DNA of 32,149 bases from Pelagerythrobacter aerophilus (GTDB lineage: Bacteria; Pseudomonadota; Alphaproteobacteria; Sphingomonadales; Sphingomonadaceae): contig NZ_QXFK01000012.1 in assembly GCF_003581645.1 (NCBI RefSeq), forward strand, positions 1 to 32,149, written 5' to 3'. Shown piece after piece: positions 2,605 through 28,218 of this stretch. The position numbers were made by a program, and so were the translations under genes. Each line of letters starts with the position of its first letter. Position 1 is the first letter of the stretch. Under the pieces are notes generated by a model that was not told where the DNA came from, searched no databases, and saw only the letters and a list, made by a program, of their open reading frames with translations.

Positions 2605-2616
2605 GGGTCGCCTCCC

Positions 2617-2904: not shown

Positions 2905-2938
2905 GATGCCGCCCTCCTGTCGTGACTGGATCCGCTGA

Positions 2939-11861: not shown

Positions 11862-12836
11862 ATGAAGGCTTGGATCGTCAGGAAATATGGCAATCCGGAG
11901 GAGATGGTCTTAGGACAAACTGCCATGCCGAAGCTGGGGGAAGGGCAAGAGAATCGGGCGGACACTCTGGTCAAGATTGACGCTGCAGGTCTGAATTTTG
12001 CGGACGAAATCGCGATTGCAGGAAAATATCAGGATCGGATAAAACCGCCGTTTGTGCCAGGCAACGAGTTGGCGGGAACGGTCGTCGAGGCAATCCCGGG
12101 TTCTCGATTCTCTCCCGGTGACAAGGTCGCATGTCAGGTCCGCAGTGGTGCCTTTGCACAATATTGTGGCGTCGCTTCTGACCGTCTGATGGCGATAGGA
12201 GACTTACCAGCCTCGGTGGCCGCCGCGCTTCCGGTTTCCTACACCACTGCCCATGTCGCCCTTTTCGAAAAGGGTAATCTCAAGAAGGGAGATACGGTCC
12301 TAATCCATGCGGCGGCAGGCGGATTGGGCATCGCTGCCACTCAGCTTGCAAAAGCAGCGGGAGCTCGCATCGTTGCCACGGCAGGCGACGAAGACAAGCG
12401 GCGAATCGCTAAAGAGAATGGGGCTGATCATGTGATCGATTATCGTCAATCTGACTGGTCCGAGCGAGTAAGAGCTCTGGCACCAGATGGGGTCGATATC
12501 GTCATGGATCCGGTCGGCGGCGAAACTTCGGAACAGAGTCTGCGTCTTCTGGCATGGGAGGGCAGGCTGTTAGTATGCGGCTTTGCCGGTGGGACGGTTC
12601 AGGCGCTCAAGGCGAACTACATGCTGGTTAAGTCCGCCAGTGTGCACGGTGTATACTGGAGCTTCGACCGCTCGCCGGAAGCGATTCGCACCATACAGCA
12701 GAAGCTGGTTAATCAATGTGCCAGAGGCGAAATTCGCCCCCTAATTCGGGATGTGTATCAAATGGATGAACTCGTTTCAGCAATGGAGTCGCTGCGCTCT
12801 CGCGGAACGGTAGGTAAAGTCGTGATTGCCATGTAG
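11862..12836 (+). CDS. NAD(P)H:quinone oxidoreductase-like MDR enzyme
   Basis: From ATG 11862 the 324-residue protein has the zinc-free medium-chain dehydrogenase layout: an N-terminal GroES-like domain with DAAGLNFADEIAIAGKYQ and PFVPGNELAGTV, then a Rossmann domain with VLIHAAAGGLGIAATQLAK as the nucleotide loop and GADHVIDY. The catalytic and structural zinc ligands of alcohol dehydrogenases are absent. Such enzymes reduce quinones or alpha,beta-unsaturated carbonyls using NADPH. It is first in the operon with the extradiol dioxygenase and the Rieske oxygenase, so it may act on a quinone or enone by-product of ring oxidation; this is inference. An in-frame start at 11763 would add 33 residues without homology. 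Confidence 0.87.
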   Translation: MKAWIVRKYGNPEEMVLGQTAMPKLGEGQENRADTLVKIDAAGLNFADEIAIAGKYQDRIKPPFVPGNELAGTVVEAIPGSRFSPGDKVACQVRSGAFAQYCGVASDRLMAIGDLPASVAAALPVSYTTAHVALFEKGNLKKGDTVLIHAAAGGLGIAATQLAKAAGARIVATAGDEDKRRIAKENGADHVIDYRQSDWSERVRALAPDGVDIVMDPVGGETSEQSLRLLAWEGRLLVCGFAGGTVQALKANYMLVKSASVHGVYWSFDRSPEAIRTIQQKLVNQCARGEIRPLIRDVYQMDELVSAMESLRSRGTVGKVVIAM

Positions 12837-12959
12837 CAGCAAACGGTCTGATTGGGCCGGCTCAGCGACCTCGAAGGCAAAACCATACTCTTGCGTATTG
12901 ACTTTTCGACCCGAAGATCCGATTGAACGATATCTGAGGTGCCGGAAGGGACGTGACAG

Positions 12960-13244
12960 ATGAGTTTTGGAGCCGTCGAGCAACTGTTTTACGACGTGAG
13001 TACCAAACGGAATTCCCGCGCAGCGTTTCGCGAGGATGCCACAGCTTTCGCAGAGAAGTACGCCCTCAGCGAGCTAGAACGCGACATGGTCTTGTCCATG
13101 AATGCCGAGGGACTCTTCGAGTACGGCATTAACCCGATGCTTCTGATGGGCTTCTGGACAAGCGTAAACGGACCGCAATCGATGCCGGATTATCTGTCCC
13201 GCGTTCCGACGCTGACGTCACAGCTCGAGACGGTAAGCGAATGA
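12960..13244 (+). CDS. Class III extradiol dioxygenase, small (LigA-like alpha) subunit
   Basis: A 94-residue helical protein starting at ATG 12960 with AGGGA about 10 bases upstream. Its LSELERDMVLSMNAEGLFEYGINPMLLMGF segment matches the LigA fold (the 'L..eer.al...d...l...g.np..l' helices) of protocatechuate 4,5-dioxygenase alpha subunits. Standalone alpha subunits of about 90 residues are known from heteromeric class III enzymes such as CarBa of carbazole degradation. It is directly followed (57 bases) by the LigB-like catalytic subunit. The small subunit caps the active site and shapes the substrate pocket; it has no catalytic metal ligands. Confidence 0.85.
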   Translation: MSFGAVEQLFYDVSTKRNSRAAFREDATAFAEKYALSELERDMVLSMNAEGLFEYGINPMLLMGFWTSVNGPQSMPDYLSRVPTLTSQLETVSE

Positions 13245-13301
13245 AGTGAGAGGCCGGCGGCAGCGAAGCGCTTACCCGTCTATCTTTAGGAGAGTTTCAA
13301 G

Positions 13302-14120
13302 ATGGCCGAAATAGTCGGCGGCTTCATCATGCCGCATGATCCATTGTTGTTTGTGAACCCAAAGAAGAAAGAGCGCGACCACCTGATTGGCGCTTATTCG
13401 GAAATTCGCGACAAAGTAAGCAAGTCCGGCGCGACGAAGGCGATCATCTTCGGCGCGGACCATTATATTCTCTTCGGCCCTCGCTGTCTGCCACAGTTTC
13501 TTATCCCGACAGGCGAGCTTCATGGTCCCATTGACCGGTTGCCCGGTGTTGGAGATTCACCGATCGCCAGCGATCCGGGTTTCGCAGAGTATTTGGTCGG
13601 CCATGCCCATCAAAGCGGCTTCGACGTGTCTGTGGCGCGCGACTTGGGGGTGGATCATGCAATCGGGGTGCCCGCCCAGCTTGCCCTTCCGGCCGACGGG
13701 TCGGTCAAGACGGTTCCCGTTTATATGGCGAGTGGCGTAGCGCCGTATGTTCGTCTCCAAAGGGCATATGATTTCGGACGAATGATTGGCGATGCCATTG
13801 CGAAAATGCCCGTAGACGAATCCGTAGTGTTGATCGGCAGCGGAGGGATCAGCCACTGGGTGGGCACCGGAGAAATGGGGCGCATCAATTCCGAGTTTGA
13901 TCGGAAGGTCCTCGACTGCATCGTTTCCGGCGATGCGACCCCTCTCCTTTCAATGACAGACGAGGAAATAATGCGCGAAGGCGGCAACGGTGGAATGGAG
14001 ATTCGTCATTTTCTTGCAGTGATGGGTGCTCTGCCGGCGGGCCGAGGCGAAGTGCTCGCTTACGAAGCCTGGGATGGCGGCGTTACCGGCCTCGGCTTTG
14101 CGGAGATACTGCCCGCCTGA
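13302..14120 (+). CDS. Class III extradiol ring-cleavage dioxygenase, catalytic (LigB-like) subunit
   Basis: The 272-residue protein carries the LigB signatures in order: MPHDP with His12, FGADHY with His54, GSGGISHW with catalytic His185 and GGMEIRHF with Glu233. By analogy with LigB, His12, His54 and Glu233 bind Fe(II) and His185 acts as acid/base. The enzyme adds O2 across a catecholic ring next to the hydroxyls (meta cleavage). GAGA precedes the ATG. Partner alpha subunit is immediately upstream; the Rieske oxygenase alpha follows by 32 bases. A LigAB-type ring-cleavage enzyme joined to a two-subunit Rieske oxygenase and a meta-cleavage hydrolase recalls angular-dioxygenation pathways (carbazole, fluorene), but the substrate here is not determinable. 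Confidence 0.92.
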   Translation: MAEIVGGFIMPHDPLLFVNPKKKERDHLIGAYSEIRDKVSKSGATKAIIFGADHYILFGPRCLPQFLIPTGELHGPIDRLPGVGDSPIASDPGFAEYLVGHAHQSGFDVSVARDLGVDHAIGVPAQLALPADGSVKTVPVYMASGVAPYVRLQRAYDFGRMIGDAIAKMPVDESVVLIGSGGISHWVGTGEMGRINSEFDRKVLDCIVSGDATPLLSMTDEEIMREGGNGGMEIRHFLAVMGALPAGRGEVLAYEAWDGGVTGLGFAEILPA

Positions 14121-14152
14121 ACGGGTCGGGTTCGAATAGCTGGAGAATGACA

Positions 14153-15471
14153 TGACTGAATCGCTCTTGAAGCCGGATAGTAATGCAAAATTGGCTGCGG
14201 GCATCGAGGAACTCGTCGACGCCGAAGCGGGAAATATTGACCGCCGGATCTTCTGGGACGAATCTATCTACAACCTGGAGCTTGAACGGATTTTTGCGCG
14301 ATGCTGGATTTTTGTCGCGCATGACACGCAATTGCCCAATGTTGGCGATTTTCTAACGACGACAATCGGTGAAGATGCGGTCATCGTGTCGCGTGGCGAA
14401 GACGGCAAGATCCACACCTTTCTCAACTCCTGTACGCATCGAGGTAATCGCGTGTGCTTTGCAGAGGCGGGCAACTCCCGGCGGTTCACATGCAATTTTC
14501 ATGGCTGGTCCTACGGTCTCGACGGTAGCTTGAAGAATGTCAGTCGCCCGCAGTCCTATAGTGGAAAATCGAACCTCGATAAGTCCAAGCTTGGCCTGCA
14601 CAAGGCGCGTGTCGAAAGCTATAAGGGGATGCATTTCGCCTGCTTCGACCCGGAGGCCCCGTCGCTTGAGGAATATCTAGGCGAATTTCGCTGGTATCTA
14701 GATGTGATCCTCGACAATGACGAAGGTGGTATCGAGTTTATCGATGGCAACATCAAATCTCGGCTCAAATGCAATTGGAAATTCCCGGCAGAGAACTTCG
14801 TGGGCGACTCGTATCACGCTCCCTGGACGCATAGCTCAGCCTTGATCGCAATGTTCGGAAAACAGCCGACCATGCGACCTGACCGTTCTTATCATGCCAA
14901 TGCGAACGGCCACGGCTGGGAGTTTGGACTGGATTTCATTGGGAACGCGGCAACGCTCAATTCACCGCCGATTATCGACTATCTGCGTGAGCAGGAGGCG
15001 AAATTTGCCGAACGTCTGGGGAAGGTTCGCAGCAGGATGGTAGGCGCTCTAAGCTCCGCTAACGTCTTTCCCAATCTTTCCTTCCTGGCAGGTCACAACA
15101 CTTTTCGGACATGGAACCCCAAGGGTCCAAGGAGCACGGAACTTCACACCTGGGTGTTCCTGAACGCAAATGCCCCGGAAGAACTCAAGGAAGAATATCG
15201 CCGCGGGGTAATGTTAACCTTTTCTCCGGCGGGTGTGTTCGAAATGGATGACGGCGAGAACTTCGAGAATTGCACGGCGGTCAATGTAGGCGTGGTGACC
15301 CGGCAGCAACAGCTTCACTTCGGGATGGGCCTCGATTCGAAAATCGAACACGAGGAACTGCGCGGCAATGTTTATCAAAGCCAGATCAATGAAGCGAACC
15401 AACGGGCCTTCTACCAGCGCTGGGCAGATCTGATGGGTGCAGAAACCTGGGCCGACGTTCCTGTCCGTTAG
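14153..15471 (+). CDS. Rieske ring-hydroxylating oxygenase, alpha subunit
   Basis: A 439-residue alpha subunit (ATG at 14152-14154). The Rieske [2Fe-2S] cluster ligands are Cys94, His96 (SCTHRGN), Cys114 and His117 (CNFHGW). The mononuclear iron site is in FVGDSYHAPWTH: Asp219 bridges electron transfer, and His222 and His227 bind iron, with the third ligand in EMDDGEN near residue 366. This spacing is that of biphenyl/naphthalene-type two-subunit dioxygenases. The enzyme inserts both atoms of O2 into an aromatic ring to make a cis-dihydrodiol (or an unstable hemiacetal if angular). It needs electrons from a ferredoxin and reductase; a reductase is at 26417, but no ferredoxin gene is present in the window. 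The beta subunit follows 18 bases later. Confidence 0.95.
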
Positions 15472-15489
15472 AAATATTCAGAGGTAAAT

Positions 15490-16035
15490 GTGAAGACTCT
15501 CGAACAAACCACCCGGCGCGATCACTGCTCTGTGTCAGCCGAGTTACTTTTGGAGATACAGCAGTTTCTGTATCGAGAAGCCCGTTTGCTCGATAACGAG
15601 CAATATGATGAATGGCTAGAATTGCTGACGGACGATATCCATTATTGGGTACCAGGAGTGCAGGCCCGCTATCGAAAGGATGAGGCGAAGTTCAGTTCCG
15701 AACGAATGGCCTATTTCGACGACGGCCTCGAATATCTCAAGATCCGCGTGGCACGCGCCAAGCAGCCGTCGGCATGGGCCGAAGATCCACCCACCAGGCA
15801 TTTTCACCTGATCGGCAATATCGAGGTCTTACCTACTGAAGATTCTAACGAGTGGACGGTCCATTCTGTGATCCTCAACCATCGTCATCGGACTGAAGAC
15901 GATGAAATGGAACTAAAAGCCAGACGCGTCGATACAATCAGGCGGAACTCAGAAGGTCTGCTCCAACTGGCGCGCAGGAAGGTCATCTTGCAGGAAACTG
16001 TCTTGCAAGCAAAGAACATCAATACGTTCCTTTGA
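15490..16035 (+). CDS. Rieske ring-hydroxylating oxygenase, beta subunit
   Basis: A 181-residue protein with the snoaL-like beta-subunit pattern: EIQQFLYREARLLDNEQYDEWLELLTDDIHYWVP at residues 23-56 and RHFHLIGNIEV later, ending with LARRKVILQ. The start is a GTG at 15490 (an overlapping ATG is immediately followed by a stop in its frame), with GAGG 5-6 bases upstream. The beta subunit is structural in the alpha3beta3 hexamer. It closes the left dioxygenase operon; the next gene is on the other strand. Length and motif agree with BphA2/NahAd-type subunits. Confidence 0.94.
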   Translation: MKTLEQTTRRDHCSVSAELLLEIQQFLYREARLLDNEQYDEWLELLTDDIHYWVPGVQARYRKDEAKFSSERMAYFDDGLEYLKIRVARAKQPSAWAEDPPTRHFHLIGNIEVLPTEDSNEWTVHSVILNHRHRTEDDEMELKARRVDTIRRNSEGLLQLARRKVILQETVLQAKNINTFL

Positions 16036-16582
16036 TTGTGTGAAGGCCCTTCTGCTTGCCCGCAACTGGGCCGAATCTGTTGCATAGGCCTGGCGGCGTA
16101 GGTTGCCCGAAAGTACTCTTGCCGCTGTTGCTGACGGCCTCTTGGCGGCTGCCACCGTGCGGGAAAAGTGGCTCGGAACGATGTAGAGAAGCAGGTGTCG
16201 TTTCTGGCACCGCAGCTGATCGGAACACCCCACGGCCTTGACAATTCCGCAATGTCAGGATCGGCAGCGCAAGATAGTGTGGATTGCTTCGCTATGGCCG
16301 GTCTGCCCTTTCGGGAGAGAAAACGAGACTTGGTTTCAATGAGGTGACAGTCGATATAGCGCCGATAATCAGGGAGTTCGCGATTTTGGCGGGTCGGAGC
16401 CTTTGCCAAATGGTCGGCAGGATACGACCCCAGGCAGAGTTCTTAGCAAAGCCTGCGGTGATGAGGTTGTCCGCTCCCTGTCGCGTGGGTCCGAGGACTT
16501 CTCGTCCAATTTGGCCTCCCGACAAGGAGCGACAGCAACGCCTTTCGTAACTTCGTTCTGTTTTGAAGTGCTTGAATCGCCG
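16036..16582. other. Convergent intergenic region
   Basis: These 547 bases lie between the ends of two convergent operons. Frames on both strands (for example 16403-16741 plus and 15885-16409 minus) lack ribosome sites and family motifs. I do not see a strong hairpin with a T-run, although two operons must end here. The length is unusual for a terminator region and may hide a decayed mobile element that I cannot identify. Confidence 0.45.
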
Positions 16583-17626
16583 TCAAACCAGATCGCGTTC
16601 CTTGGCCATCGAGAGCGCGGTGTCTTCGATCATGTCCTCCTGACCCCCGATCATTTTCTTGCGAGCCAATTCCATCAAGATATCACGTGCAGACAAGCCG
16701 TACTTACGTTCGGCTTCTTTGGCCTGATACAGGAAGGTTGAGTAGACCCCTGCAAAACCGAGCGTTATGGAATCCCTGTCCGCACGGGGCGGCTGAGGCA
16801 TGATCGGCAAAACCCGATCCTCTGCTACGTCCATCAGCTTAAACAGATCCACCCCGGTTTCGATGCCCAATCGCTCTCCGACGGCAGCCATCAGTTCGAG
16901 GGGTGTATTGCCAGCGCCAGCACCCAATCCGGCAGCCGAACCGTCGATGCGGTCCGCGCCCGCGGCTACAGCAGCCAGCGAATTGGCGACTCCCATCCCG
17001 AGATTGTGATGAGCGTGAAATCCGATCTCGGTTTCGTCCTGCAAAGCTGTGCGAAGGATGGTGATGCGATCGGTAACTTCATCAGGCAGCATGTAACCTG
17101 CCGAATCAACACAGTAGATTGTTGTTGCTCCATACCCTTCCATCAACAGCGCCTGCTCAACCAGGTGCTCGGGCGGCGTCATATGCGCCATCATGAGAAA
17201 GCCGACTGTATCAAGCCCAAGTTCCCGTCCCAGGCCAATGTGCTGTTCGGTAACGTCGGCTTCGGTGCAATGCGAGGCGACATGAACACATCCTGCCCCG
17301 CAATCGGCGGCCATCCGCAACTCATCCAGAGTGCCAATGCCCGGAACATGGAGTACCGAGATAGTCGCCTTTTTCACTACCTTGGCCACTGCCGAGATAT
17401 ATTCGCTATCCGAATGGAGTCCGCGACCGTAATTCAGGGATGATCCTCCCAACCCGTCACCGTGAGTGACCTGGATCAACGGCACCCCTGCGTCATCAAG
17501 CCCGGAAGCGATATCGACCATCTGATCCAGCGTGATCTGATGCCGCATGGAATGCATGCCGTCGCGCAGACACATATCATGCAGCTTGAGCTTTTTACCC
17601 CTAACCTGTTCTTCGAGTGTCATCAT
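16583..17626 (-). CDS. 4-hydroxy-2-oxovalerate aldolase
   Basis: The 347-residue protein has the full DRE-TIM aldolase motif set: LRDGMHS near residues 20-26 (catalytic arginine, metal aspartate, base histidine) and HAHHNLG at 204-210, where His204 and His206 bind the divalent metal. DmpG/BphI/MhpE-family length is about 340-350. It cleaves 4-hydroxy-2-oxovalerate to pyruvate and acetaldehyde, and works as a channelling complex with the acylating acetaldehyde dehydrogenase, whose stop overlaps this ATG by 4 bases. It is the last gene of the lower-pathway operon (hydratase, dehydrogenase, aldolase). Confidence 0.96.
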
Positions 17627-18540
17627 GCGTTCTCCTTCAATGGTGAGAGTTCAAGTCGGCCATCAAGGATGTCTTGTGCAAACATTTCGGCCGTGCGCGC
17701 TGCAGCGGCAGTCATGATGTCCAGATTTCCTGCATATTTGGGGAGAAAATCGCCAAGTCCCTGCACTTCCAGAAAGATCGAGACTTTGCGCCCCTCGAAA
17801 ATTGGCCCGTTCTTCAATTGGTAGCCGGGGACATATTGTTGCACAGCAGAAATCATCTCGTGCACGGATGCGGTGATCGCTTCCTGATCCGGCTCGTCGA
17901 CTGTTTCGCAATAGACGGTGTCACGCATCATCAGCGGAGGCTCGGCCGGATTGACGACCACGATAGCCTTGCCTTGCGCTGCACCTCCCACTTTCGCGAC
18001 TGCCGCAGAAGTGGTGCGCGTGAACTCGTCGATATTCTTCCGAGTACCCACTCCGATCGACTTCGACGCGACCGTTGCGATTATCTCGGCGTAATCCACG
18101 CTTTGAACATTGCTGATGGCGGCGACCATCGGAATCGTGGCCTGACCCGCGCATGTGACCATGTTGACGTTCATTGCCTTACGGCCTGCCAGATCCTTGA
18201 GATTCACCGGGGGAACGCAAAGCGGGCCAAGGGCGGCGGGCGTCAGGTCGATCATAAGAATGCCCAGCTCGTTCAGCTTGCGGCTGTTTTCGGCGTGGAC
18301 ATAGGCCGAAGTCGCATCAAACGCGATGCTCACTCCATCCTCGATCGCGTGAGGCACCAGCCCGTCAACCCCTTCAGCAGTGGTCTTGAGGCCCAGTTCC
18401 TTCGCGCGGGCCAGACCTTCGGATCCGGCCTCAATACCCACCATCCAAACGGGTTCGAGAACTTCGGAACGAAGCAGTTTGTAAAGCAGATCGGTGCCGA
18501 TATTCCCCGGCCCGATTATTGCGCATTTAATTTTGTCCAT
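17623..18540 (-). CDS. Acetaldehyde dehydrogenase (acylating)
   Basis: A 305-residue member of the DmpF/BphJ/MhpF family. The NAD-binding loop is [11 protein letters not shown] at residues 8-18 and the catalytic cysteine is Cys130 in MVTCAGQ. The enzyme oxidises acetaldehyde, passed through a tunnel from the aldolase, to acetyl-CoA with NAD and CoA. Overlap with the aldolase gene (ATGA) supports co-translation of the complex. A 78-base spacer to the hydratase upstream holds a small hairpin. Length and motifs are standard. Confidence 0.96.
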
Positions 18541-18572
18541 CCGAGCATCCTTACTTTGTCACTAGAGTGCGC

Positions 18573-18589
18573 CGAGGTCTGTCACCTCG
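18573..18589. repeat. Short hairpin in the hydratase-dehydrogenase spacer
   Basis: CGAGGT and ACCTCG arms flank a 5-base loop, 33 bases upstream of the acetaldehyde dehydrogenase ATG. In the minus-strand mRNA it would form a 6-base stem, which might partly insulate hydratase from the downstream pair or protect mRNA. Too short for a firm assignment. Confidence 0.35.
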
Positions 18590-18618
18590 CTGCTATCCTT
18601 GCCGAAGCACGCGATTGG

Positions 18619-19410
18619 CTAAGAAAAAATCATGCGACAGGACCCAAGCCCGTCGCTGAGGTTAAGTTGCAGCGTGTCACCGCTGGATATGTCGATCATC
18701 GGACCAAGTGCTCCGGAAAGGATTATTTCGCCCGCCCTGAACGGCATTCCAAGCTCGCCAAGCGTATTGGCCAGCCAGGCGACAGAGTTAAGAGGGGAAC
18801 CCTGAACAGCGGCGCCGATCCCGCTCGCAACCTCGACTCCATTACACTCGATTGTCATGGCCACTTTTGCCAGATCGATCTCACGGGGATCGACCCGCTC
18901 GGTCCCTATCGCGAATATTCCGCACGAGGCGTTATCCGCGACTGTATCCTGAATTCTGATATCCCAGTCTTGAATGCGGCTATCGACGATCTCGAAACAG
19001 GCAGTGACATATTCGGTCGCCTCCAGTACATCGGCGGCGGTCACGCCAGGCCCGTTGAGATCATGTTGCAGGATGAACGCAATTTCGCCTTCTGCCTTGG
19101 GTTGGATGAGTGATTTGTGATCTACCGTAGCGCAATCGGGAACCAGCATTCGATCGGTCAATTGTCCGAAATCAGGCTCGAACACCCCGATCATTTCCTG
19201 CACCACTTTGGAAGTAACGCCGATCTTTTTGCCGATGATCTTTTCGCCAGCTTCCAGACGGCGCGCGACCATTCGTTCCTGGACGCGATAGGCGTCGACA
19301 ATATCTATCTCCGGATGGCGATCCCGCAGATTGGAAACCGTTCGGCCCTTGATCAGTGCGCCGTAGAGTTCATCACCCAGGGAAGATATTATTGAACTTT
19401 CGAGTGGCAT
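18619..19410 (-). CDS. 2-hydroxypenta-2,4-dienoate hydratase (2-oxopent-4-enoate hydratase)
   Basis: From ATG 19410 (GGGAGAA 10 bases upstream) the protein is 263 residues; a longer open frame to 19758 has no supporting features. Family motifs include DAYRVQERMVARRLEAGEKIIGKKIGVTSK, PKAEGEIAF (metal-binding Glu of the MhpD/BphH fold), and ACFEIVDSRIQDWDIRIQDTVADNASCG. The enzyme adds water to 2-hydroxypentadienoate to make 4-hydroxy-2-oxovalerate, the substrate of the aldolase two genes on. It is the first gene of the minus-strand lower-pathway operon and is divergent from an iclR gene, so IclR control is likely. Confidence 0.94.
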   Translation of the reverse strand: MPLESSIISSLGDELYGALIKGRTVSNLRDRHPEIDIVDAYRVQERMVARRLEAGEKIIGKKIGVTSKVVQEMIGVFEPDFGQLTDRMLVPDCATVDHKSLIQPKAEGEIAFILQHDLNGPGVTAADVLEATEYVTACFEIVDSRIQDWDIRIQDTVADNASCGIFAIGTERVDPREIDLAKVAMTIECNGVEVASGIGAAVQGSPLNSVAWLANTLGELGMPFRAGEIILSGALGPMIDISSGDTLQLNLSDGLGSCRMIFS

Positions 19411-19651
19411 TGCCTTAAATTCTCCCAAACGTGCGCATCGAAACGCCCTTGTATCTTTTGCCGATCTCGTCTCCTGGCCACCATCGAGCAATTCACCGCC
19501 CGTCCAATCTGAGCAGTCAGCGAATCCGGCACGGTTCGAAAACGGCGTCTTCAATCTATGTTTGTGTCTGTGCGCTATCGTTTGGCACCCTGCCAAGCTT
19601 GACCGGCGGCAATTGAGGCCTAGAGCCTCACTCTGTGAGAGGAGCGACAAG
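19411..19651. promoter_or_regulatory. Divergent hydratase-iclR control region with an operator candidate
   Basis: This 241-base spacer must contain promoters for the lower-pathway operon and for iclR. TGAGGC-ctaga-GCCTCA (19614-19630) is a 6-base-arm inverted repeat about 20 bases upstream of the iclR ATG, next to the ribosome site GAGAGGAG; it is the best candidate for an IclR binding site. I could not place -35/-10 boxes with confidence. Confidence 0.5.
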
Positions 19652-20449
19652 ATGAACGATGCATCCAGCACATCGGTTGTCGAGCGAATACTCGACCTGA
19701 TCGGTTGCCTTTCGTCGGCGCCCAAGACGGTAAGGGAAATCTGCGAACATACCGGCATTCCCGTTTCTACAGCTCACCGGCTCTTGAGGCCGTTGGTCGA
19801 GCGCAAATTTGTAATCCGGCAACGTCGAGGATTATACGCTCTCGGCATCGCCAGCGTGGAAATAGCGGTACGTGCGGATATCGATTCGATTATTACCACT
19901 GCAACCCGGCCCATTATGGCAGACCTCGCCAAGACTTGCAGGCGTACGGTGCATCTGGGCGTCTTTCGTGACAATCTTGTACGCTATTTGGTCAAGGCCG
20001 AATCCGGGTGCCGACGGTCTCCTTCTCGGGAGGAGATCGAGCTCGAGGCTTACTGCACAGCGATTGGCAAGGCCCTGCTTGCTCAACTGGAACGGGACAG
20101 GCTTGAAGACTATCTTGCCTTGGGCGATTTCGTTCCTCTTACGGACAACACAATATTCGATGTCGATGACCTGAGACAAGAAATCAACGGCGTACGCCGA
20201 CAGGGATGGGCGATAGATCGAGGGGAGATGTATCCAGAGCTGCGCTGCCTCGCGGTGCCGATACGGGGCAGGACCGGCCTGTTGGCGGCGGTGTCAGTCA
20301 CCGAGGTCTGCAACGACGTTGATCCCGAGAAAGCGGAACAGGATTTGCTGACGCTTTTTCCGCGCATCGTTGAAGCGGCAGAGGCAGTTTCCGATGTTTT
20401 GCGAATGCCAGGGGACGAGGTTCGCGAGAAGCGAAGTAACAAGACTTGA
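19652..20449 (+). CDS. IclR-family transcriptional regulator
   Basis: The 265-residue product has an N-terminal winged helix (VVERILDLIGCLSSAPKTVREICEHTGIPVSTAHRLLRPLVERKFVIR, residues 9-57) and a C-terminal ligand domain with EAYCTAIGKALLA, GWAIDRGEMYPELRCLAVPI and AAVSVT, standard for IclR. IclR proteins often control aromatic catabolic operons and respond to pathway acids. The ATG at 19652 has GAGAGGAG 9 bases upstream. It is divergent from the hydratase operon and convergent with the SDR gene (10 bases between stops). Central position suggests it governs the cluster. Confidence 0.94.
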   Translation: MNDASSTSVVERILDLIGCLSSAPKTVREICEHTGIPVSTAHRLLRPLVERKFVIRQRRGLYALGIASVEIAVRADIDSIITTATRPIMADLAKTCRRTVHLGVFRDNLVRYLVKAESGCRRSPSREEIELEAYCTAIGKALLAQLERDRLEDYLALGDFVPLTDNTIFDVDDLRQEINGVRRQGWAIDRGEMYPELRCLAVPIRGRTGLLAAVSVTEVCNDVDPEKAEQDLLTLFPRIVEAAEAVSDVLRMPGDEVREKRSNKT

Positions 20450-20459
20450 AGTGCTCGGC

Positions 20460-21248
20460 CTAACCCATTCGCGAGATCAATCCGCCATCGCTGACCAGGA
20501 TCGTTCCATTTAGGTTTACTCCATCTCTAGGTGACGCGAGAAGCACATAGCATCCGGCATGATCTTCCGCCTCTGCCGCCCTTGCCAGTGGCGATGCCTT
20601 CGCCACCATTTCAACTGTGCGCTGTTCGGAATCGAGACGACGCGATGCGCTCTCCAGTGTGTCCAATCCCGAAAGGCCCGTGACAGTCCCGCCAGGAGCA
20701 ACGCCGTTAACGCGGATTTGCGGCGCCCATTCATAAGCAAGTTGATAAACTATGCCCCGCAGTGCGAACTTGCTGGCAGTGTACAATGTGCCACCGCCGC
20801 CAGCTCTGAAACTAGCATTGGAGCAGGTCACTATCAGAGAGCCCGTGGATTTCCGCAACGCATCTGCGGAAGCTCGCGCCAAGAGCAAAGTCGACAGCAC
20901 ATTAATTCGGAACAATTCCTCGAACGCTGCCTCCACGTCTTCCATTTTCATGCGATCTATACGCTTGTACCAGTCGTAAACGCCGGCGTTCGCTATCGTG
21001 GTGTCCAGTTTTCCGAATTTTTCCTGCGCAAGTTCGACGCCCGCTTCGCAGATCGCAGCCTCTGTGCAATCTCCCGCGAGGACAGAGCACCGATCCCCCA
21101 AGTGATCCGACAAATCCGCGAGAGCGTCGGCATTGCGATCCAACGCAACTACATTCGCTCCTTCCTCGACGAGACGTATCGCCACTGCCTTGCCGATACC
21201 TGAAGCCGCGCCAGTGATTAACGCTGTTTGGCCCGAAAGTTTTCCCAT
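20460..21248 (-). CDS. Short-chain dehydrogenase, probable cis-dihydrodiol dehydrogenase
   Basis: Starting at ATG 21248 the 262-residue protein is a classical SDR: TGAASGIG cofactor loop, NAG in TIANAGVY, the catalytic serine in CSNASF and YTASK for the Tyr/Lys pair. Cofactor preference is probably NAD, as VVALDRN has an aspartate after the second strand. The most economical role is oxidation of the cis-dihydrodiol made by the Rieske oxygenase to the catechol used by the extradiol enzyme, like BphB/HcaB. It is a single-gene unit on the minus strand divergent from the hydrolase operon. If the Rieske enzyme attacks angularly no dehydrogenase would be required, and the SDR could act on a side-chain alcohol instead. 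Confidence 0.85.
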   Translation of the reverse strand: MGKLSGQTALITGAASGIGKAVAIRLVEEGANVVALDRNADALADLSDHLGDRCSVLAGDCTEAAICEAGVELAQEKFGKLDTTIANAGVYDWYKRIDRMKMEDVEAAFEELFRINVLSTLLLARASADALRKSTGSLIVTCSNASFRAGGGGTLYTASKFALRGIVYQLAYEWAPQIRVNGVAPGGTVTGLSGLDTLESASRRLDSEQRTVEMVAKASPLARAAEAEDHAGCYVLLASPRDGVNLNGTILVSDGGLISRMG

Positions 21249-21378
21249 CAATTCTCACCCTCTGGTTTTTTGTCTATTTCAGATCAACCATCCATACTCC
21301 AGCGTATTGACATCTTCCAAGGTCCCTCGCAACAGACAAGGAAGAAGAATTTGGCGAAATGCTGCTTTGGAGAGAGGT

Positions 21379-22221
21379 ATGCCCGGTAATACGGAGCTTC
21401 CCGATATCGGGTTGTCGATAGACGTCGACGGTATCCAGACAAATTATCACGATTGTGGAGAAGGTGACCCCGTCATCCTCCTTCACGGTTCGGGTCCGGG
21501 CGTGACCGCCTGGCAAAACTGGCGAGGAATCCTGCCAAAACTTGGGGAAACGCACAGGGTTCTGGCCCCCGACATCGTGGGCTTCGGCTTTAGCCAACTG
21601 CCTGAAGGAGAGAAGCCGGGCATCAAACTGTGGACGCGGCATCTGGCGGGCTTTATAGAAGCCCTTGGCCTCGACCGCGTAACGCTGGTCGGCAACAGCT
21701 TCGGTGGTGCCCTCGCGCTGGGAATGATGGCTTTTCATTCCGACAAGGTGCGCTCGCTTATTCTTATGGGCACACCGGCTGGTGAGTTTGAGCAGACGCA
21801 GGGATTGGCGGACAGCCGATCCTTCGAGCCCAGCATGGACGCCATGCGCGCTATGATGAAGGCATTCCCATACGATCCGTCAATAGTTACCGACGAGGCA
21901 GTGGCCGCGCGCCTGCGTGTGGCGGAAATCGCCAGCGGGAAAGAGACAATCCGCAAGCTGCAGCCTGGCGCTGATCAAGCATCGAAAGGTCCACGAATCG
22001 TCAAGGGCATTCCGCTGGAGCAGTTGAAAGCTATCGATGCGCCAACGCTGATTCTGCACGGCCGCGAAGACAAGATGATTCCATTGCATGTTGCAGTGCG
22101 AATGCACGAACACCTCAAGCGCTCCGAGATGCATGTCTATGGTCAATGCGGCCACTGGGTCCAGCTAGAGCGTGAGCATCAGTTTCTGGACCAAATACGC
22201 GCATTTCTCCGTCGCAATTGA
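21379..22221 (+). CDS. Meta-cleavage-product C-C hydrolase
   Basis: The 280-residue alpha/beta hydrolase has the signature of BphD/CarC/XylF-type enzymes: HGSGPGVTAWQNW near residue 35-47 (oxyanion hole), VGNSFGG with the nucleophilic serine, LHGREDKMIP with the acid, and QCGHWVQLE with the histidine. These enzymes split the vinylogous 1,5-diketone made by extradiol cleavage into 2-hydroxypentadienoate and a carboxylic acid. The ATG at 21379 has GAGAGG just upstream. The gene begins the right operon; its stop overlaps a TTG that could also start the ligase gene. The released acid could be the substrate of the adjacent CoA ligase. Confidence 0.92.
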   Translation: MPGNTELPDIGLSIDVDGIQTNYHDCGEGDPVILLHGSGPGVTAWQNWRGILPKLGETHRVLAPDIVGFGFSQLPEGEKPGIKLWTRHLAGFIEALGLDRVTLVGNSFGGALALGMMAFHSDKVRSLILMGTPAGEFEQTQGLADSRSFEPSMDAMRAMMKAFPYDPSIVTDEAVAARLRVAEIASGKETIRKLQPGADQASKGPRIVKGIPLEQLKAIDAPTLILHGREDKMIPLHVAVRMHEHLKRSEMHVYGQCGHWVQLEREHQFLDQIRAFLRRN

Positions 22222-22277
22222 AATCCTCGCTAGCCGTATTTCTTGGCCGCAAAATCCTTAACACAGTTTCCGGCGAA

Positions 22278-23879
22278 ATGGTATTTATGCAGATGTCGAA
22301 AACCAGAACCGAGATACTTCGTCGTCTCAGTGAAGGCGATCGAGCTTTCCTGCGCGAAGAATATAGTGATGTCGTGACCATGTTCTGGGACGCGGTAGAA
22401 GCTTGTCCTGAAAAGCTGGCACTGATTGAGGGAGATCGAAAACTCTCATACGAGCAGTACGGTTCTGCGGTTGCAGGTCTCGCTGCGCGCATTGGCGAGA
22501 TTGTCCCGCCATCAGGCCGTGTCGCGATTTCCATCCCGAATTCTATCGAGGCAAACGTCGCCATTTTCGCTGCATTGAGCGCTGGTGCCGAGATTTCGAT
22601 GGTCAATGCCGAATATACGCCGCGCGAACTTGGAGTGTTGTTCGGGATTGCGGAGCCCGATCTCGTTCTGGCGGGTGGACAGAACGCCACGGTCGCCGGT
22701 GCCACCGCCGGCAGCATTGGTAAACCACTAGCGATCGTGGGCGAGGGCGGCATTGCGATCGAGCAGTTGCTGGAAACGCCGCCAGAGCGGCCGGGACTCG
22801 AAATAACGGGCGAAAGCCCCTGTATAATCATGTTTACGGGTGGATCGACGGGCGCACCGAAGGGTGTCCGGCGCTCTCAAAGCTCGGAAATGAGCTGCAT
22901 CAAGGCAATGCAAACCGCTTGGCCTACTCGCCTATACGAAGAAGTCTGGCTTAATGTTGCCCCCGTCAGCCATGTCTGGGGCCTGCACATGGGGTGCTTC
23001 AATCCTGTTTATGGGCGCGCTCCCCTCGTAATCGTTCCGCGCTTCCAGCCAGACGTCACGGCAGGTCTGATGGAAAAGCACAGGGTCAGCGTCTTCAGCG
23101 GTGGTCCGGCGGCTATCTATCAGGGACTCCTTGCAGCCCCTGATGCCGACTTATCTGCGCTGTGGCTGTGCCCTGGCGGCGGTTCGGTATTCTCTCGGCA
23201 AACCCTTCTGCGTTGGGAGGCCAAGACCGGCCTTCCGATACTCGAGGCATTTGGCATGACAGAAGGCGGCCCACTGACGGCGCAACCACTCGACGGCTCG
23301 CACAAGTACGGCACTGCTGGCCTCCCATTGCCCGGTATCGAGGTGGCCATTGCTGCGCTCGATGGAAGTGGCAAGCGGCTGGATCCGAATGAGAACGGTG
23401 AAATTTTGATCCGCGGAGAACGTGTCATTGAGCAATACATGGGCCTTCCACCATGTGCAGATGACGGATGGCTCCCCACCGGGGACATCGGATGTTTGAC
23501 TTCGGATGGTTTTCTGACAGTCGTCGACCGCAAGAAAGACATGCTCATTGTTGCGGGATTTAATGTCTATCCCAGCGAGATCGAGGAAGTAATTTCCCAA
23601 GTTCCGGAGGTCACGGATGTGGCTGTAATCTCAGTGCCTGACGATCGCAAGGGTGAAGTGCCCTTTGCTTTTGTAGCAATCGACCAGGGGGCCGGGATTA
23701 CTGAAAAGACACTCCTAAATCACTGCGCCGAGCACCTGACCAACTACAAGATTCCGCGAGCAATCGTCTTGCTTGACGAGCTTCCAAAGACGCCCGCACG
23801 CAAGCCGGACAAAAAGAGGCTCGAGAAACTGGCTAGAGATTTTTTGAGGAAGCAAGGCAATAAAATTACTGCAAAGTAA
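22278..23879 (+). CDS. Class I AMP-forming acyl-CoA ligase
   Basis: An adenylate-forming ligase of about 533 residues. Motifs: IIMFTGGSTGAPKGVRRSQ (A3, P-loop-like), GMTEGGPL (A5), TGDIG (A7), DRKKDMLIVAGFNVYPSEIE (A8) and KTPARKPDKKRL (A10, catalytic lysine; the usual Gly before Lys is Arg). Starts at ATG 22278, 22293 or a TTG at 22218 that overlaps the hydrolase stop are possible; none has a strong ribosome site and I chose 22278. It activates a carboxylic acid to its CoA ester. Sitting between the C-C hydrolase and the TonB receptor, it could activate either the growth substrate or the acid released by the hydrolase. Confidence 0.9.
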   Translation: MVFMQMSKTRTEILRRLSEGDRAFLREEYSDVVTMFWDAVEACPEKLALIEGDRKLSYEQYGSAVAGLAARIGEIVPPSGRVAISIPNSIEANVAIFAALSAGAEISMVNAEYTPRELGVLFGIAEPDLVLAGGQNATVAGATAGSIGKPLAIVGEGGIAIEQLLETPPERPGLEITGESPCIIMFTGGSTGAPKGVRRSQSSEMSCIKAMQTAWPTRLYEEVWLNVAPVSHVWGLHMGCFNPVYGRAPLVIVPRFQPDVTAGLMEKHRVSVFSGGPAAIYQGLLAAPDADLSALWLCPGGGSVFSRQTLLRWEAKTGLPILEAFGMTEGGPLTAQPLDGSHKYGTAGLPLPGIEVAIAALDGSGKRLDPNENGEILIRGERVIEQYMGLPPCADDGWLPTGDIGCLTSDGFLTVVDRKKDMLIVAGFNVYPSEIEEVISQVPEVTDVAVISVPDDRKGEVPFAFVAIDQGAGITEKTLLNHCAEHLTNYKIPRAIVLLDELPKTPARKPDKKRLEKLARDFLRKQGNKITAK

Positions 23880-23926
23880 TACAGGAATAGATTGCTAATT
23901 TTATTATGCCAAATTGGGGAGGTTTT

Positions 23927-26113
23927 ATGAAAGTATACTTTTTAACAACGGTGGCTGCGCTGCCGGTTTTGCTCTGCCCGGCCGCAGCTTTTGCGCAGGG
24001 TGCATCTGAGGATCAAGCGGGCGAGTTCGCAGGAGCGACCGAGGCACAGGCTGAGGAAGGCAATGGGACGATTATCGTTACCGCCACTCGCCGTGAGGAA
24101 AGCCTGCAGGAAGTGCCAGTCGCGGTGACGGCAGTTTCTACCGAAGCGCTGACGACATCCGGCGTCGAGCAGGTCCGTTCACTCAACCAGCTTGTGCCCG
24201 GATTCAATGGCGGGCGCAATCAGAACGTGATGCAGCCCAGTATCCGTGGCGTAGGATCCAGCGGCACCTCAGTGGGTGATGAATCGAACGTCGCCGTGTA
24301 TGTCGATGGGGTGTACCAAGGCGATCCTTATTCGACACAGATTGATCTCGTCGAAGTTTCGCGGGTAGAGGTATTGCGCGGACCGCAAGGTACGGTATTC
24401 GGTCGTAATGCGACCGGCGGTTTGGTTAACGTCGTGACGCCGGATCCGCAGTTCGCGCCACGGGCCTGGGTAAGGGGAAGCTGGGGCCGACTGCGCGAAG
24501 ACTCGAACAATTTCGACATCCGCGCCTATGCAACCGGCGGGTTGACAGACTCGATCGCTGCCGATCTGGCGGTACTGTACCGAAATCAAGATGGATACGC
24601 GACTGACTTGGTCAGCGGCGGCACAGTCGGCGATACCGAAATTGCTTCCATCAGATCCAAGCTGTTGTTTCAACCTAGCGACGATGCTGAGTTCGTTCTG
24701 ACGGTTGCCTACGTCGATACGCACGAAGAAACTGCGGCGACCGCCCAGCCTTTTGAAGGCAACACCCGTGGCGCACAATTCGCCGGAGCGATCATCTCTG
24801 ACGAGCCTTGGGAAATCTCGAACTTCGCCTTTGGAACACCGGGCTTGTCGGAATTCACCCGTCTCGATCTTGCGCTGAAGGGGCAGATTGATCTGGGCGG
24901 AGTTATGCTTGAATCGACTAGTTCTTATATGAAGACGCGCGTCCATCAGATCGCAGATTCCGATGCCACCAACATCCTCCTTGGTGAAACGAACATGCGG
25001 GTAAAGCCCGACACATTCACGCAGGAACTTCGTCTGATTTCGGACAATGCCAGTCCGTTAAGTTGGACTGCCGGCGTTTATTACTACCAGCTTGAGGGCG
25101 AGCAGCCGCTCATATTAATAAATCGCCAGGATACGGCGACCCCTGTTACGCCGATCACGATTGAACCTGAAGTCAAGAACTCTTCGATAGCGGCATTCGC
25201 CGAAGGAACCTATGAGTTGGCACCAAGGCTTTCGGTAACTCTGGGCGGGCGGTTCACCACTGAAACACGAAAGTTTTCTCAACGGATTAACGGGAATCAG
25301 CTCTTCTCCGATGCAGAAGAAGATTTCGATAAGTTTACCTATCGGGTGGCTGTCCAGTATGAAGCTTCACCTGACCTGAACCTTTATGCGACCTATGGGA
25401 CAGGCTTTAAGAGCGGCACGTTTAACACGTTCAGCGCTTCCAGCGTTGCTGTCGAACCCGAAACCATCGAAGCACTGGAATTCGGCATCAAATCCGATCC
25501 ATTCCCATGGCTACGCGCAAACCTTGCGACCTTCTATTATACCTATGACAATCTGCAAGTTACCGCGCGGGCGGCGGACAATTCCTTCGTTCTTCAGAAT
25601 GCTGCAAGCGCGGAAATCTACGGCGGTGAGCTTGAACTTTCAGCAGAGCCCACGCGAGGCCTCAATCTGAGAGCTGCCCTGGCTTACACGCATGCCACCT
25701 ACGATGAATTTGAAAGTGCGCAGGTGTTCATTCCTCAGCCCGGTGGGGGAAACATGGTTGCCTCGGCTGACGCATCAGGAAATCAACTTGTCCGTACGCC
25801 AGAATTCACTTTGACGCTGGGTGGTCGCTACACTTTCGATGCGTTTCAGGGTGAAGCATTTATCGGCGGCAACCTGTTTCATTCGAGTGAGGTTTATTAC
25901 GACTACCTCAACATTTTCGGTCAGGATTCATATGAACTGCTTTCAGCCGAGATCGGCTGGATTAGCCCAGATGATGATCTGACATTCCGGGTTTACTCCA
26001 AGAACCTTACGAATGAAGCGGTGGCTCAACAGATCTCACCGGGTCCGCTCGGGGCATACATCATTTATGAGCGCCCACGCGAAATAGGTGCAAGTGTAGA
26101 ATTAAGATTCTAA
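23927..26113 (+). CDS. TonB-dependent outer-membrane receptor
   Basis: From ATG 23927 (GGGGAGG just upstream) the precursor has 728 residues. It shows a signal peptide (MKVYFLTTVAALPVLLCPAAAFAQ), a TonB-box-like IIVTATRREE, and a plug domain with SIRGVGSSG, VAVYVDGVYQG and RVEVLRGPQGTVFGRNATGG. The remainder is beta-barrel strands ending in a terminal phenylalanine (VELRF). This subfamily is expanded in sphingomonads, and members near catabolic genes import aromatic or steroid-like compounds across the outer membrane. In the right operon it probably imports the pathway substrate; specificity is not readable. An earlier ATG at 23906 lacks a ribosome site. Confidence 0.95.
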   Translation: MKVYFLTTVAALPVLLCPAAAFAQGASEDQAGEFAGATEAQAEEGNGTIIVTATRREESLQEVPVAVTAVSTEALTTSGVEQVRSLNQLVPGFNGGRNQNVMQPSIRGVGSSGTSVGDESNVAVYVDGVYQGDPYSTQIDLVEVSRVEVLRGPQGTVFGRNATGGLVNVVTPDPQFAPRAWVRGSWGRLREDSNNFDIRAYATGGLTDSIAADLAVLYRNQDGYATDLVSGGTVGDTEIASIRSKLLFQPSDDAEFVLTVAYVDTHEETAATAQPFEGNTRGAQFAGAIISDEPWEISNFAFGTPGLSEFTRLDLALKGQIDLGGVMLESTSSYMKTRVHQIADSDATNILLGETNMRVKPDTFTQELRLISDNASPLSWTAGVYYYQLEGEQPLILINRQDTATPVTPITIEPEVKNSSIAAFAEGTYELAPRLSVTLGGRFTTETRKFSQRINGNQLFSDAEEDFDKFTYRVAVQYEASPDLNLYATYGTGFKSGTFNTFSASSVAVEPETIEALEFGIKSDPFPWLRANLATFYYTYDNLQVTARAADNSFVLQNAASAEIYGGELELSAEPTRGLNLRAALAYTHATYDEFESAQVFIPQPGGGNMVASADASGNQLVRTPEFTLTLGGRYTFDAFQGEAFIGGNLFHSSEVYYDYLNIFGQDSYELLSAEIGWISPDDDLTFRVYSKNLTNEAVAQQISPGPLGAYIIYERPREIGASVELRF

Positions 26114-26416
26114 CCTGACGGCTGGAGGGAACGCTGAATTAAAGTCAAGCTGTACTCTCCAGCATCACCTCGATTGGGGTCACGTCATTGGAGTAGGCGG
26201 TCTACTCACGCATTGCCGTGATTGCTGTAGGGGCGCTACATGTCCGGACCAGGCGGGGCTGGTAATACCAGAAAGCGCCCCATCCATGAACTATGACCGA
26301 AACGACGAGCCCCACAGCTCCGGCAATTGCACCGAGACTTCTCGGCTGTTTTGCCAGATGCCGAAATTTGAGCATCAGACGGGATCGAGCGTCCCAATCA
26401 TTGAGGAGGACCGGCG
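26114..26416. other. TonB receptor-reductase spacer with a short IS-end-like motif
   Basis: This 303-base stretch interrupts the right operon. GGGGTCACGTCA at 26176-26187 is identical to the last 12 bases of the IS terminus at 5591-5602, and TTGGA...GGCGG follows in both places. It may be a solo IS end left by a deletion, or chance. A minus-strand frame (26202-26372) with one hydrophobic stretch is present without a ribosome site. Confidence 0.4.
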
Positions 26417-27670
26417 TTGATTGATCGTTTCGACGTGCTGATTGTTGGTACTGGGCACGGTGGCGCCCAGACTGCGCTGGCGCTCCGCCAGAATGGCTTT
26501 GAAGGCACCATAGCCATGTTGGGGCGAGACAAAGAACCACCCTACGAACGACCACCTCTATCTAAGGAATATCTCGCGCGTGAGAAAGAGTTCGAACGCA
26601 TCCTGATTCGCCCCGTCAGCTTTTGGAAAGACAAGCAGGTGCGCCTGATGCTTGGTAGTGAAGTCGTCGCGGTTGATGCCGATGCTCGCACCGTTGCGTT
26701 GCAGGATGGCCGAACGTTTGGTTATGGAGAGTTGGTGTGGGCCGCGGGCGGCTCACCACGCAAGCTAACTTGCGAAGGCGCTGACCTCCAAGGCATCCAC
26801 TCCGTGCGCGACAAGGGGGATGTTGACGCAATCACGGGCCAACTCGGTAACGGAGCGAGGCGGGTCGTGGTGATCGGCGGCGGCTATATCGGACTAGAAG
26901 CGGCAGCCGTGCTACGCAAACTTGGCTGCACTGTCGTGTTACTCGAAGCAATGGAACGCGTATTGGCCCGCGTCGCGTGCGAAGCGATTTCCCGGTTCTT
27001 CGAGGCACAGCACAGAGTGCACGGTGTGCAGGTTCGACTCAATACAGTGGTCGACTGCATTCAAGGGGATGGTACCAAAGCCACCGGCGTGAAGTTGGAT
27101 AATGGTGAAGTTATCCACTGCGACATGGTCATCGTCGGCATAGGCATTGTTCCCGTCGTCGAGCAACTTTCCGCAGCTGGCGCCGATACGCCTAATGGCG
27201 TGGCCGTCGACGAGTATTGCCGTACAAGTCTGCCGCATGTCCACGCCATCGGCGATGTCGCCCTTCAAGCCAACAGTTTTGCCGATGGTAAGATGATCCG
27301 GATTGAGAGTGTGCAAAACGCCGGTGGGATGGCAAATACAGTTGCGAAAAACCTGTGCGGAAGCCAAGTTCCTTATTTAGCGACCCCTTGGTTTTGGTCC
27401 AATCAATACGACTTGAGGCTACAGACGGCTGGCCTATCTGCAGGCCATGACAAGACCGTTCTACGCGGTGATCCGTTCAAACGAAGCTTTTCGGTGATCT
27501 ACCTAAAACGGGGTAAGGTCATCGCACTCGACTGTGTAAATGCGATGAAAGACTACGTCCAAGGCCTTAAGCTAGTGGAGGCAAGGGCAGAAGTCGCGGT
27601 CGAGGCGCTGGTTGACTCTGAGACGCCGCTGAAGAATCTCATATCGGTTCTGAGAGGTGAGAAAAAGTGA
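26417..27670 (+). CDS. FAD-dependent ferredoxin reductase for the Rieske oxygenase
   Basis: The 417-residue protein starts at a TTG at 26417, supported by AGGAGG 7 bases upstream. It has two dinucleotide-binding motifs: GTGHGG at about residue 11 (FAD) and [20 protein letters not shown] at about 155 (NADH), plus [14 protein letters not shown] and HAIGDVA, the pattern of BphA4/putidaredoxin-reductase-type enzymes. It transfers electrons from NADH to a ferredoxin. No ferredoxin gene is found in the window, so the partner must be encoded elsewhere. The gene is separated from the TonB receptor by 303 bases and may have its own promoter or have been added by rearrangement. Confidence 0.93.
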
Positions 27671-28009: not shown

Positions 28010-28180
28010 AAGTCAAACCGCTTCGTTGCGCATGTGTTCGGTTGAAGTGTTGGGCGCCTTAGCGGAGCCAGTTGGGCGTTGCGGGAATAGCTGTTGCGTT
28101 ATCAGTTCTGCGCCGAACGCCGCCGGATTTGCGTACACCAGAACAGTTGCGTTCTCTCCCGATTGTAGTCCTCGCCCAAG
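28010..28180 (-). mobile_element. Reverse-oriented decayed IS3 transposase tail
   Basis: Read on the minus strand, the frame gives GEDYNRERTQLFW before a stop, and a shifted frame gives YANPAAFGAELITQQLFPQRPTGSAKAP. Together these match the tail at 5395-5569 (EDYNRERPPSSLGYATPAAFAAELDK ... RPTGSA), with frameshifts. It is the same element type, more decayed, and points the opposite way: its 3' end faces the catabolic cluster, just as the left copy's does. Confidence 0.75.
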
Positions 28181-28218
28181 GCAGCGGCTCGATCCAGGCA
28201 CGGGCTACTCTGCCACCT

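Follow-up and report, generated by a model that had tools for sequence, protein, structure and literature searches.

A sphingomonad gene cluster that combines a Rieske oxygenase, a two-subunit class III extradiol dioxygenase and a CoA ligase, and its relatives in other Proteobacteria

To our knowledge, the described meta-cleavage routes for monocyclic aromatic compounds with a side chain R (phenyl-R) open the ring with a class I or a one-subunit class III extradiol dioxygenase and do without a dedicated ligase for the acid that is freed; the cumene, ethylbenzene and xylene pathways, for example, use class I enzymes. For LigB-family ring-cleavage enzymes, one report describes bi- and polycyclic aromatics as substrates (PMC4250580). 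Here we analyse a 32,149-nt stretch of Pelagerythrobacter aerophilus DNA (the window; NZ_QXFK01000012.1, contig C18 of the organism's own 3.65-Mb genome), in which positions 11862–27670 hold what is predicted to be a near-complete gene set, short of a ferredoxin only, for opening the ring of a phenyl-containing compound and taking it to central metabolites. This agrees with a previous sequence-only reading, which had proposed a near-complete pathway with no assigned substrate; no substrate-assigned relative emerged from the searches made. The set recurs in other bacteria and brings along a two-subunit dioxygenase, a ligase and a reductase of its own, pointing to an aromatic substrate whose degradation has so far not been assigned, as far as is known, and with all steps but the ferredoxin lying within about 16 kb the proposal is directly testable.

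The genes that had been named in this interval, for a TonB receptor, Rieske alpha and beta subunits, a short-chain dehydrogenase/reductase (SDR), LigA and LigB, a hydrolase, a hydratase, an aldolase, a dehydrogenase, a ligase and an IclR regulator, are all present and open, with family matches far beyond chance. The ring-cleavage enzyme is class III, unlike that of the cumene-type pathways: adjacent plus-strand genes encode a LigA-type small subunit (12960..13244; PF07746, E = 9e-8, 32.6 bits, gathering score 25.3) and a LigB-type catalytic subunit (13302..14120; PF02900, E = 1.9e-27, 96.4 bits, gathering score 26.3), and motifs that we take to carry the His and Glu metal ligands could be located in LigB. 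On the same strand follow the Rieske oxygenase alpha subunit (14152..15471; PF00355 and PF00848, E = 7.4e-17 and 7.2e-23), whose best solved relative is a biphenyl 2,3-dioxygenase alpha subunit (2gbw, 369.8 bits), and the beta subunit (15490..16035; PF00866, E = 3.5e-36; PRK10069 subfamily, 190.3 bits, above the cut-off of 145). The cis-dihydrodiol dehydrogenase, an HcaB-like SDR, lies on the minus strand (20460..21248; PRK06200, 299.8 bits, below the cut-off of 330), and the meta-cleavage product C–C hydrolase on the plus strand (21379..22221). The latter scores 224.5 bits with CumD (2d0d) and 146 with the next different solved relative, and aligns Ser, Asp and His at the catalytic positions. 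Of the lower pathway, encoded on the minus strand, the 4-hydroxy-2-oxovalerate aldolase (16583..17626; TIGR03217, 524.6 bits, equivalog cut-off 286) and the acylating acetaldehyde dehydrogenase (17623..18540; TIGR03215, 459.5 bits, equivalog cut-off 282.25) are firm, both passing the NCBI cut-offs; the 2-oxopent-4-enoate hydratase (18619..19410) stays below the equivalog cut-off of TIGR03220 (379.5 of 408.8 bits), still its best match by far (next 231 bits). The upper enzymes are assigned by domain matches, and among the matches listed, which for the SDR, the ligase and the reductase are the best 25, the beta subunit alone passes an NCBI cut-off, that of a subfamily. The hydrolase gene is followed immediately by that of an AMP-binding acyl-CoA ligase (22218..23879, plus strand; PF00501, E = 1.2e-58; PF13193, E = 8.1e-20).

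Two further plus-strand genes belong to the set and had previously gone unnamed. One, qorA (11862..12836), encodes a reductase of the NAD(P)H-dependent MDR family, a quinone or enoyl reductase by its match to TIGR02824 (224.5 bits, below the cut-off of 296.8), and adjoins ligA in four related loci as well (L004, L006, L007 and L008, described below). The other encodes the ferredoxin reductase of the oxygenase system (26417..27670; PF07992 and PF14759; HcaD model, 301.1 bits, below the cut-off of 450), of which a 57% relative adjoins the beta subunit gene in L004.

We propose a ring-attack and meta-cleavage pathway for phenyl-R in which the freed acid R-COOH is activated with CoA, with a polar or acidic side chain as the most likely R, a proposal to which we give an even chance. 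The Rieske oxygenase would convert phenyl-R to the 2,3-cis-dihydrodiol, the SDR would convert this to 3-R-catechol, LigAB would cleave the catechol next to R, and the hydrolase would split the cleavage product into R-COOH and 2-hydroxypenta-2,4-dienoate, which hydratase, aldolase and acylating dehydrogenase would carry on to pyruvate and acetyl-CoA. The CoA ligase would activate R-COOH, with the substrate itself as a less likely target; the reductase encoded by qorA may act on the o-quinone formed from the catechol or on an unsaturated acyl-CoA. The proposal builds on gene identities at family level and on the conservation of the set, which recurs in Tistrella, B. cenocepacia, Comamonadaceae and further genomes; from these we infer the substrates of the reactions, the place of the ligase step and the nature of R.

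A LigB scan of genome contigs yielded 12 distinct loci, and plasmid searches were evaluated for the best 30 of 192 and of 937 records. The same set, at 57–95% identity, is present in Sphingopyxis bauzanensis (L006), Parasphingorhabdus flavimaris (L004), two Sphingomonadaceae that are uncultured (L007, L008) and a genome of the same family as the window (G285, L069/L070). Orthologues of the ligase, at 75–79%, are found in L032, L034 and L070. More divergent sets occur in the sphingomonad relatives G005 (L040, L041) and G397 (L072), and a distant form occurs in Comamonadaceae (L011–L013), a Burkholderiales bin (L010), Tistrella mobilis plasmid pTM2, B. cenocepacia plasmid pBcn842-1, G116 (same order) and G712 (same phylum). 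The distribution is sparse. Among 396 genomes of the order, 11, one of them the own genome, have a LigB match of E = 1e-60 or better, and in at least three of these (G109, G361 and one of two places in G264) the neighbouring genes are of naphthalene type; a phylum-wide draw of 398 genomes contains two with a match of E = 1e-50 or better, one of them again the own genome. Across 12 clusters, alpha, LigB and hydrolase correlate in their pairwise identities (r = 0.89–0.90), which supports, without proving, a single inherited unit, as genome relatedness contributes to the correlation. In the alpha tree S. bauzanensis joins a Novosphingobium bin rather than the window (100/99), suggesting transfer of the cluster between genera, provided that the bin has been named correctly. 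We tentatively propose, at somewhat short of an even chance, that these loci represent an undescribed, horizontally spread pathway family of Alpha-, Beta- and possibly other Proteobacteria that uses a class III enzyme of two subunits to cleave 3-substituted catechols and degrades a phenyl-substituted acid from the ring side, the freed acid being activated with CoA and reduced.

In L040 (4146–7616) and L072 (3735–7208) a fused pyruvate/indolepyruvate ferredoxin oxidoreductase-like gene adjoins the cluster, that of L040 with POR and DUF6537 domains. The neighbours of a sister LigAB group (L076, L077, L079) are relatives of isomerase and hydratase-aldolase, the arrangement of naphthalene-type routes, and P. 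putida S12 plasmid pTTS12 (L028, 14700–16624) carries LigA, LigB and a partial alpha gene beside mercury-resistance and transposase genes.

To follow the auxiliary genes, we counted 17 clusters in stretches longer than 10 kb, leaving out the pTTS12 fragment, L005 and L009 (contigs below 5 kb), and L002 and L003, which repeat the window. The CoA ligase is a regular part of the cluster family, present in 16 of the 17 (window, L004, L006, L007, L008, L070, L040, L072, L010–L013, L026, L027, L074/75 and L078) and missing from the 11-kb contig L041; contrary to what the sequence-only reading had supposed, its presence is thus not unusual. The ligase gene directly follows the hydrolase gene in L004, L006, L008 and L070, as in the window. 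Malonyl-CoA synthetase was considered as its identity on the strength of the best solved relative (4fuq, 193 bits) and rejected, with FadD13 close behind at 182 bits. A second ligase beside the aldolase gene or qorA is open in L006, L008, L070 and L040 and broken in L004 and L007, with a counterpart beside the hydrolase gene in L072; none was found in the window, and the best match in the own genome reaches 36%. The reductase gene comes in two forms: qorA in eight clusters (window, L004, L006, L007, L008, L070, L040 and L072) and an NMO-type gene in another eight (L010–L013, L026, L027, L074 and L078), never both inside one operon, with L041 having neither and L027 a weaker MDR relative further upstream. 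Both the MDR and the NMO-type families include quinone and enoyl reductases.

Comparison with characterised enzymes sets LigB and the hydrolase apart from the alpha subunit: by sequence identity the first two are closer to uncharacterised operon relatives than to anything characterised, and alpha is not. LigB shares 45–53% identity with operon relatives outside the window's close group, 43% with the pTTS12 fragment, 40% with pLA3, 37% with the carbaryl plasmid enzyme, 31% with CarBb, 29% with FlnD1 and 25% with MhpB. The hydrolase shares 45–48% with distant operon relatives, 43% with CumD, 41% with the EtbD type, 35% with XylF, 34% with CarC, 30% with MhpC and 29% with FlnE, and in its tree 14 operon rows form a clade (97/98) that lies apart from, not inside, the CumD/XylF/EtbD group. 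For alpha, the identities are 56% with the EtbAa type of DK17, 55% with pNL1 BphA1f, 40% with HcaE and 38% with the pDF02 enzyme. The names EtbAa, EtbD, BphA1f, FlnD1, FlnE, CarC, CarBb, XylF and McbC are our presumed assignments for plasmid entries whose records carry generic product names. The trees were built without the L012 and L007 alphas, the pTTS12 and L009 hydrolases (the L009 slice runs past the gene end) and, for LigB, MhpB; two pDF02 alphas, one pNL1 alpha and XylX were also left out of the alpha tree, and L007 and L012 out of the alpha residue alignment. In the searches made, alpha and LigB did not cluster with a single known pathway of the same gene order, and no characterised pathway with this gene set was found among solved structures, plasmids and open-licence PubMed Central articles; subscription papers lay outside this scope, so a description of the cluster may exist there.

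Judged from these sequences, a polar R would be about twice as likely as a hydrocarbon, as suggested by transporter genes in relatives, a basic residue in the hydrolase and the alpha residue at position 336. TRAP transporter genes lie inside the operons of L026 (Tistrella) and L075 (G712), a periplasmic binding protein gene lies inside that of L012, and a Liv-type ABC ATPase gene is found just downstream in L037. At the hydrolase position aligned with CumD 203, a basic residue occupies 15 of 15 operon rows and none of the seven others, of which three are gapped there, and the 15 operon rows include five that are almost identical relatives. The position aligned with LB400 BphA 336 is H (five rows) or Q (seven rows) in 12 of 14 operon alphas; HcaE has T there, and the four biphenyl/ethylbenzene-type rows have I. 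CumD W143 is replaced by arginine in five of the 15 hydrolase rows, those of the window group; the numbering and weight of CumD 143 and BphA 336 are as we presume them to be. The sequence-only reading had expected a larger or carboxylated substrate on the basis of the ligase and the receptor; of this, a polar or carboxylated R gains some hint, from the transporters and residues 203 and 336, which are new evidence.

A number of observations weigh against this proposal. Besides the gapped and near-identical rows just mentioned, the placing of position 203 in the pocket is putative and comes from alignment, W143 is kept as in CumD in five distant operon hydrolases (L010, L011, L013, L027 and L074), and residue 336 is L in two of the 14 operon alphas (L041 and L072). 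Inner-membrane transporters were not seen among the genes of the sphingomonad clusters, and the transporter argument therefore rests on relatives that may have another substrate. The ligases of the clusters do not form one subfamily. At 51–56%, the window alpha is no closer to its distant operon relatives than to BphA1f and EtbAa, and the sphingomonad alphas join these two in the tree (88/91), so that the operon alphas are not one clade. These closest characterised alphas, and CumD for the hydrolase, act on hydrocarbons.

Foremost among the alternatives, possible though less likely than a polar R, is a hydrocarbon substrate whose side chain is alkyl or alkenyl, as in cumene, ethylbenzene or styrene; here the ligase would activate a fatty or acrylic-type acid and the qorA or NMO-type enzyme would reduce an unsaturated acyl-CoA. 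The identities of alpha and hydrolase to EtbAa, BphA1f and CumD and the placing of the sphingomonad alphas favour it, as does the exclusive occurrence of qorA and the NMO-type gene, which would make them two alternative reductases for one step. The pTTS12 LigA–LigB–alpha fragment also lies about 11 kb from styrene genes, and a row of OmpW, GMC, aldehyde dehydrogenase and desaturase-family genes stands near the L032 cluster. This row is not seen in L069/L070, and alk-type genes near the L032 cluster were discarded as a clue on the same finding; the carboxylate-type transporter genes of relatives, the basic hydrolase residue and the polar alpha residue also argue against a hydrocarbon, and a search of open-licence PubMed Central for styrene degradation via acrylate returned nothing on the cluster. 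We consider a 3-phenylpropionate or cinnamate pathway, a functional equal of E. coli hca plus mhp that releases succinate or fumarate, to be unlikely. The reaction order is that of hca/mhp and, among named models, those of Hca type score best for alpha, beta, SDR and reductase, but only beta passes an Hca-type cut-off, at subfamily level. The HcaE and HcaF equivalog cut-offs are missed (390.1 of 830 and 122.6 of 230 bits), LigB stays far below MhpB-type models (at best 93 of 286 and 92 of 291 bits), identities to HcaE, MhpC and MhpB are the low ones given above, and succinate would not need the CoA ligase of the cluster.

The two remaining alternatives change the order or the mode of attack. 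A CoA ligase acting first, with the Rieske oxygenase working on the CoA thioester, appears very unlikely here. The cluster has a dedicated SDR and a hydrolase, which fits a 3-substituted catechol in free form; none of its genes could be recognised as resembling a thiolase or retro-aldolase, and the ligase gene repeatedly stands directly behind the hydrolase gene. In ibuprofen degradation a CoA ligase does precede the dioxygenase, but the extradiol enzyme is type I (PMC9195938). Least probable of all, in our judgement, is an angular pathway of the carbazole, fluorene or dibenzofuran type for a biaryl. The sequence-only reading had linked the cluster to carbazole and fluorene routes through the combination of a LigAB enzyme with a Rieske oxygenase; pCAR3 and pDF02 do share these, and a hydrolase. 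This link finds no support: LigB shares 31% with CarBb and 29% with FlnD1, the hydrolase 34% with CarC and 29% with FlnE, operon relatives outside the window's close group are nearer, and the alpha subunit reaches 38% with the pDF02 enzyme. CarBb and FlnD1 also stand apart from the other 20 LigB rows (97/95), and angular attack needs no dedicated cis-diol dehydrogenase. Nor are LigB-family ring-cleavage enzymes peculiar to such routes: E. coli hca/mhp has one, and they are reported for bi- and polycyclic aromatics (PMC4250580).

The proposed phenyl-R set is accompanied by uptake and regulatory genes. The TonB-dependent outer-membrane receptor (23906..26113, plus strand; PF00593 and PF07715) has 74–88% orthologues in L032, L034, L042 and L070. 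Its presence had been called unusual; such a receptor is ordinary for sphingomonads, one following the car genes on pCAR3 and another the bphA1f-type genes on pNL1. The IclR-family regulator (19652..20449, plus strand) has IclR-type matches below the cut-off and 61–70% orthologues in L004, L006, L007 and L008. A TetR-family regulator (30132..30797, plus strand) is probably also a member, with a 68–69% orthologue beside tonB in L032, L042 and L070 and none seen there in L034; the cluster would thus probably extend beyond 11862–27670 to this gene. A 0.9-kb insertion (28065–28980) with part of a transposase-like open reading frame, absent in L043, separates the ferredoxin reductase gene from the TetR gene. 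No Rieske-type ferredoxin gene was detected by motif in window reading frames of at least 50 residues; the best match elsewhere in the own genome (C3:220831) reaches 39% over 69 residues. None was found in the clusters of L004, L006 and L007 either, and one is present in L041 and the distant-form clusters. Judged from homologues, translation and upstream sequence, the true starts of the hydratase (19410), IclR (19652), SDR (21248) and hydrolase (21379) genes probably lie inside the longest open reading frames.

The window is nearly identical to Sphingopyxis indica DS15 (L002; 99.993% identity, 14.3 kb aligned) and to a Sphingopyxis metagenome bin (L003; 99.975%, 16.1 kb), with alignment breaks outside the cluster. 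At window 5394–5395, S. indica DS15 has about 1.3 kb extra (L002 761–2092); an AMP-ligase match spans that point in L002, and the window copy (4879–5478) is short. Two places in the own genome (C6:748492 and C14:50993) give identical scores to the AMP-ligase query, and the stretch may be duplicated. In L003, two stretches matching the window's second MarR gene are about 3 kb apart (1646–4693), and at window 31600–32149 an IS3-family transposase-like open reading frame (124 bits, cut-off 160) runs off the contig end.

The systems closest in overall gene content are the clusters of Tistrella mobilis pTM2 and B. cenocepacia pBcn842-1, which share the hydrolase, LigA, LigB, alpha and beta subunits, HcaB-type SDR, hydratase, CoA ligase, acylating acetaldehyde dehydrogenase, aldolase and TetR genes with the window. 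They differ in having their own ferredoxin, an NMO-type gene in place of qorA and catabolic genes that all share one strand; neither a TonB receptor nor an IclR gene was seen in the stretch, and pTM2 has a TRAP transporter. Both are annotated by pipeline, and we know of no tested function for either. The cumene, ethylbenzene and xylene pathways (CumD, EtbAa, XylF) supply the closest characterised hydrolase and alpha subunit and the same kind of lower route; in DK17, bphC is annotated beside these genes, and the gene table, which is incomplete, lists no CoA ligase. E. coli hca/mhp likewise joins a Rieske oxygenase, an SDR, a LigB-family enzyme, a hydrolase and the lower route, but is split over two loci and has no LigA gene and, in the stretches compared, no CoA ligase. 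The carbazole plasmid pCAR3 and pDF02, whose genes we take to be fluorene/dibenzofuran-type, share the two-subunit LigAB-type enzyme and the hydrolase, and pCAR3 the TonB receptor; besides the low identities, the genes listed next to the oxygenase of car do not include one for a beta subunit. LigAB of the carbaryl plasmid pXWY, presumably McbC, and of pLA3 form the nearest LigB group outside the operon relatives (37–40%) but stand with isomerase and hydratase-aldolase-type genes, not with a hydrolase route. The tetralin thn cluster of Sphingopyxis granuli TFA also proceeds by meta-cleavage and activates a side-chain acid with CoA through cluster genes, a transferase (ThnH) in TFA and a synthase (ThnQ) in TFB; it differs from the cluster described here in its bicyclic substrate, in the I.3.E subfamily of its extradiol enzyme ThnC and in that the acid arises after the aldolase step (PMC6563040).

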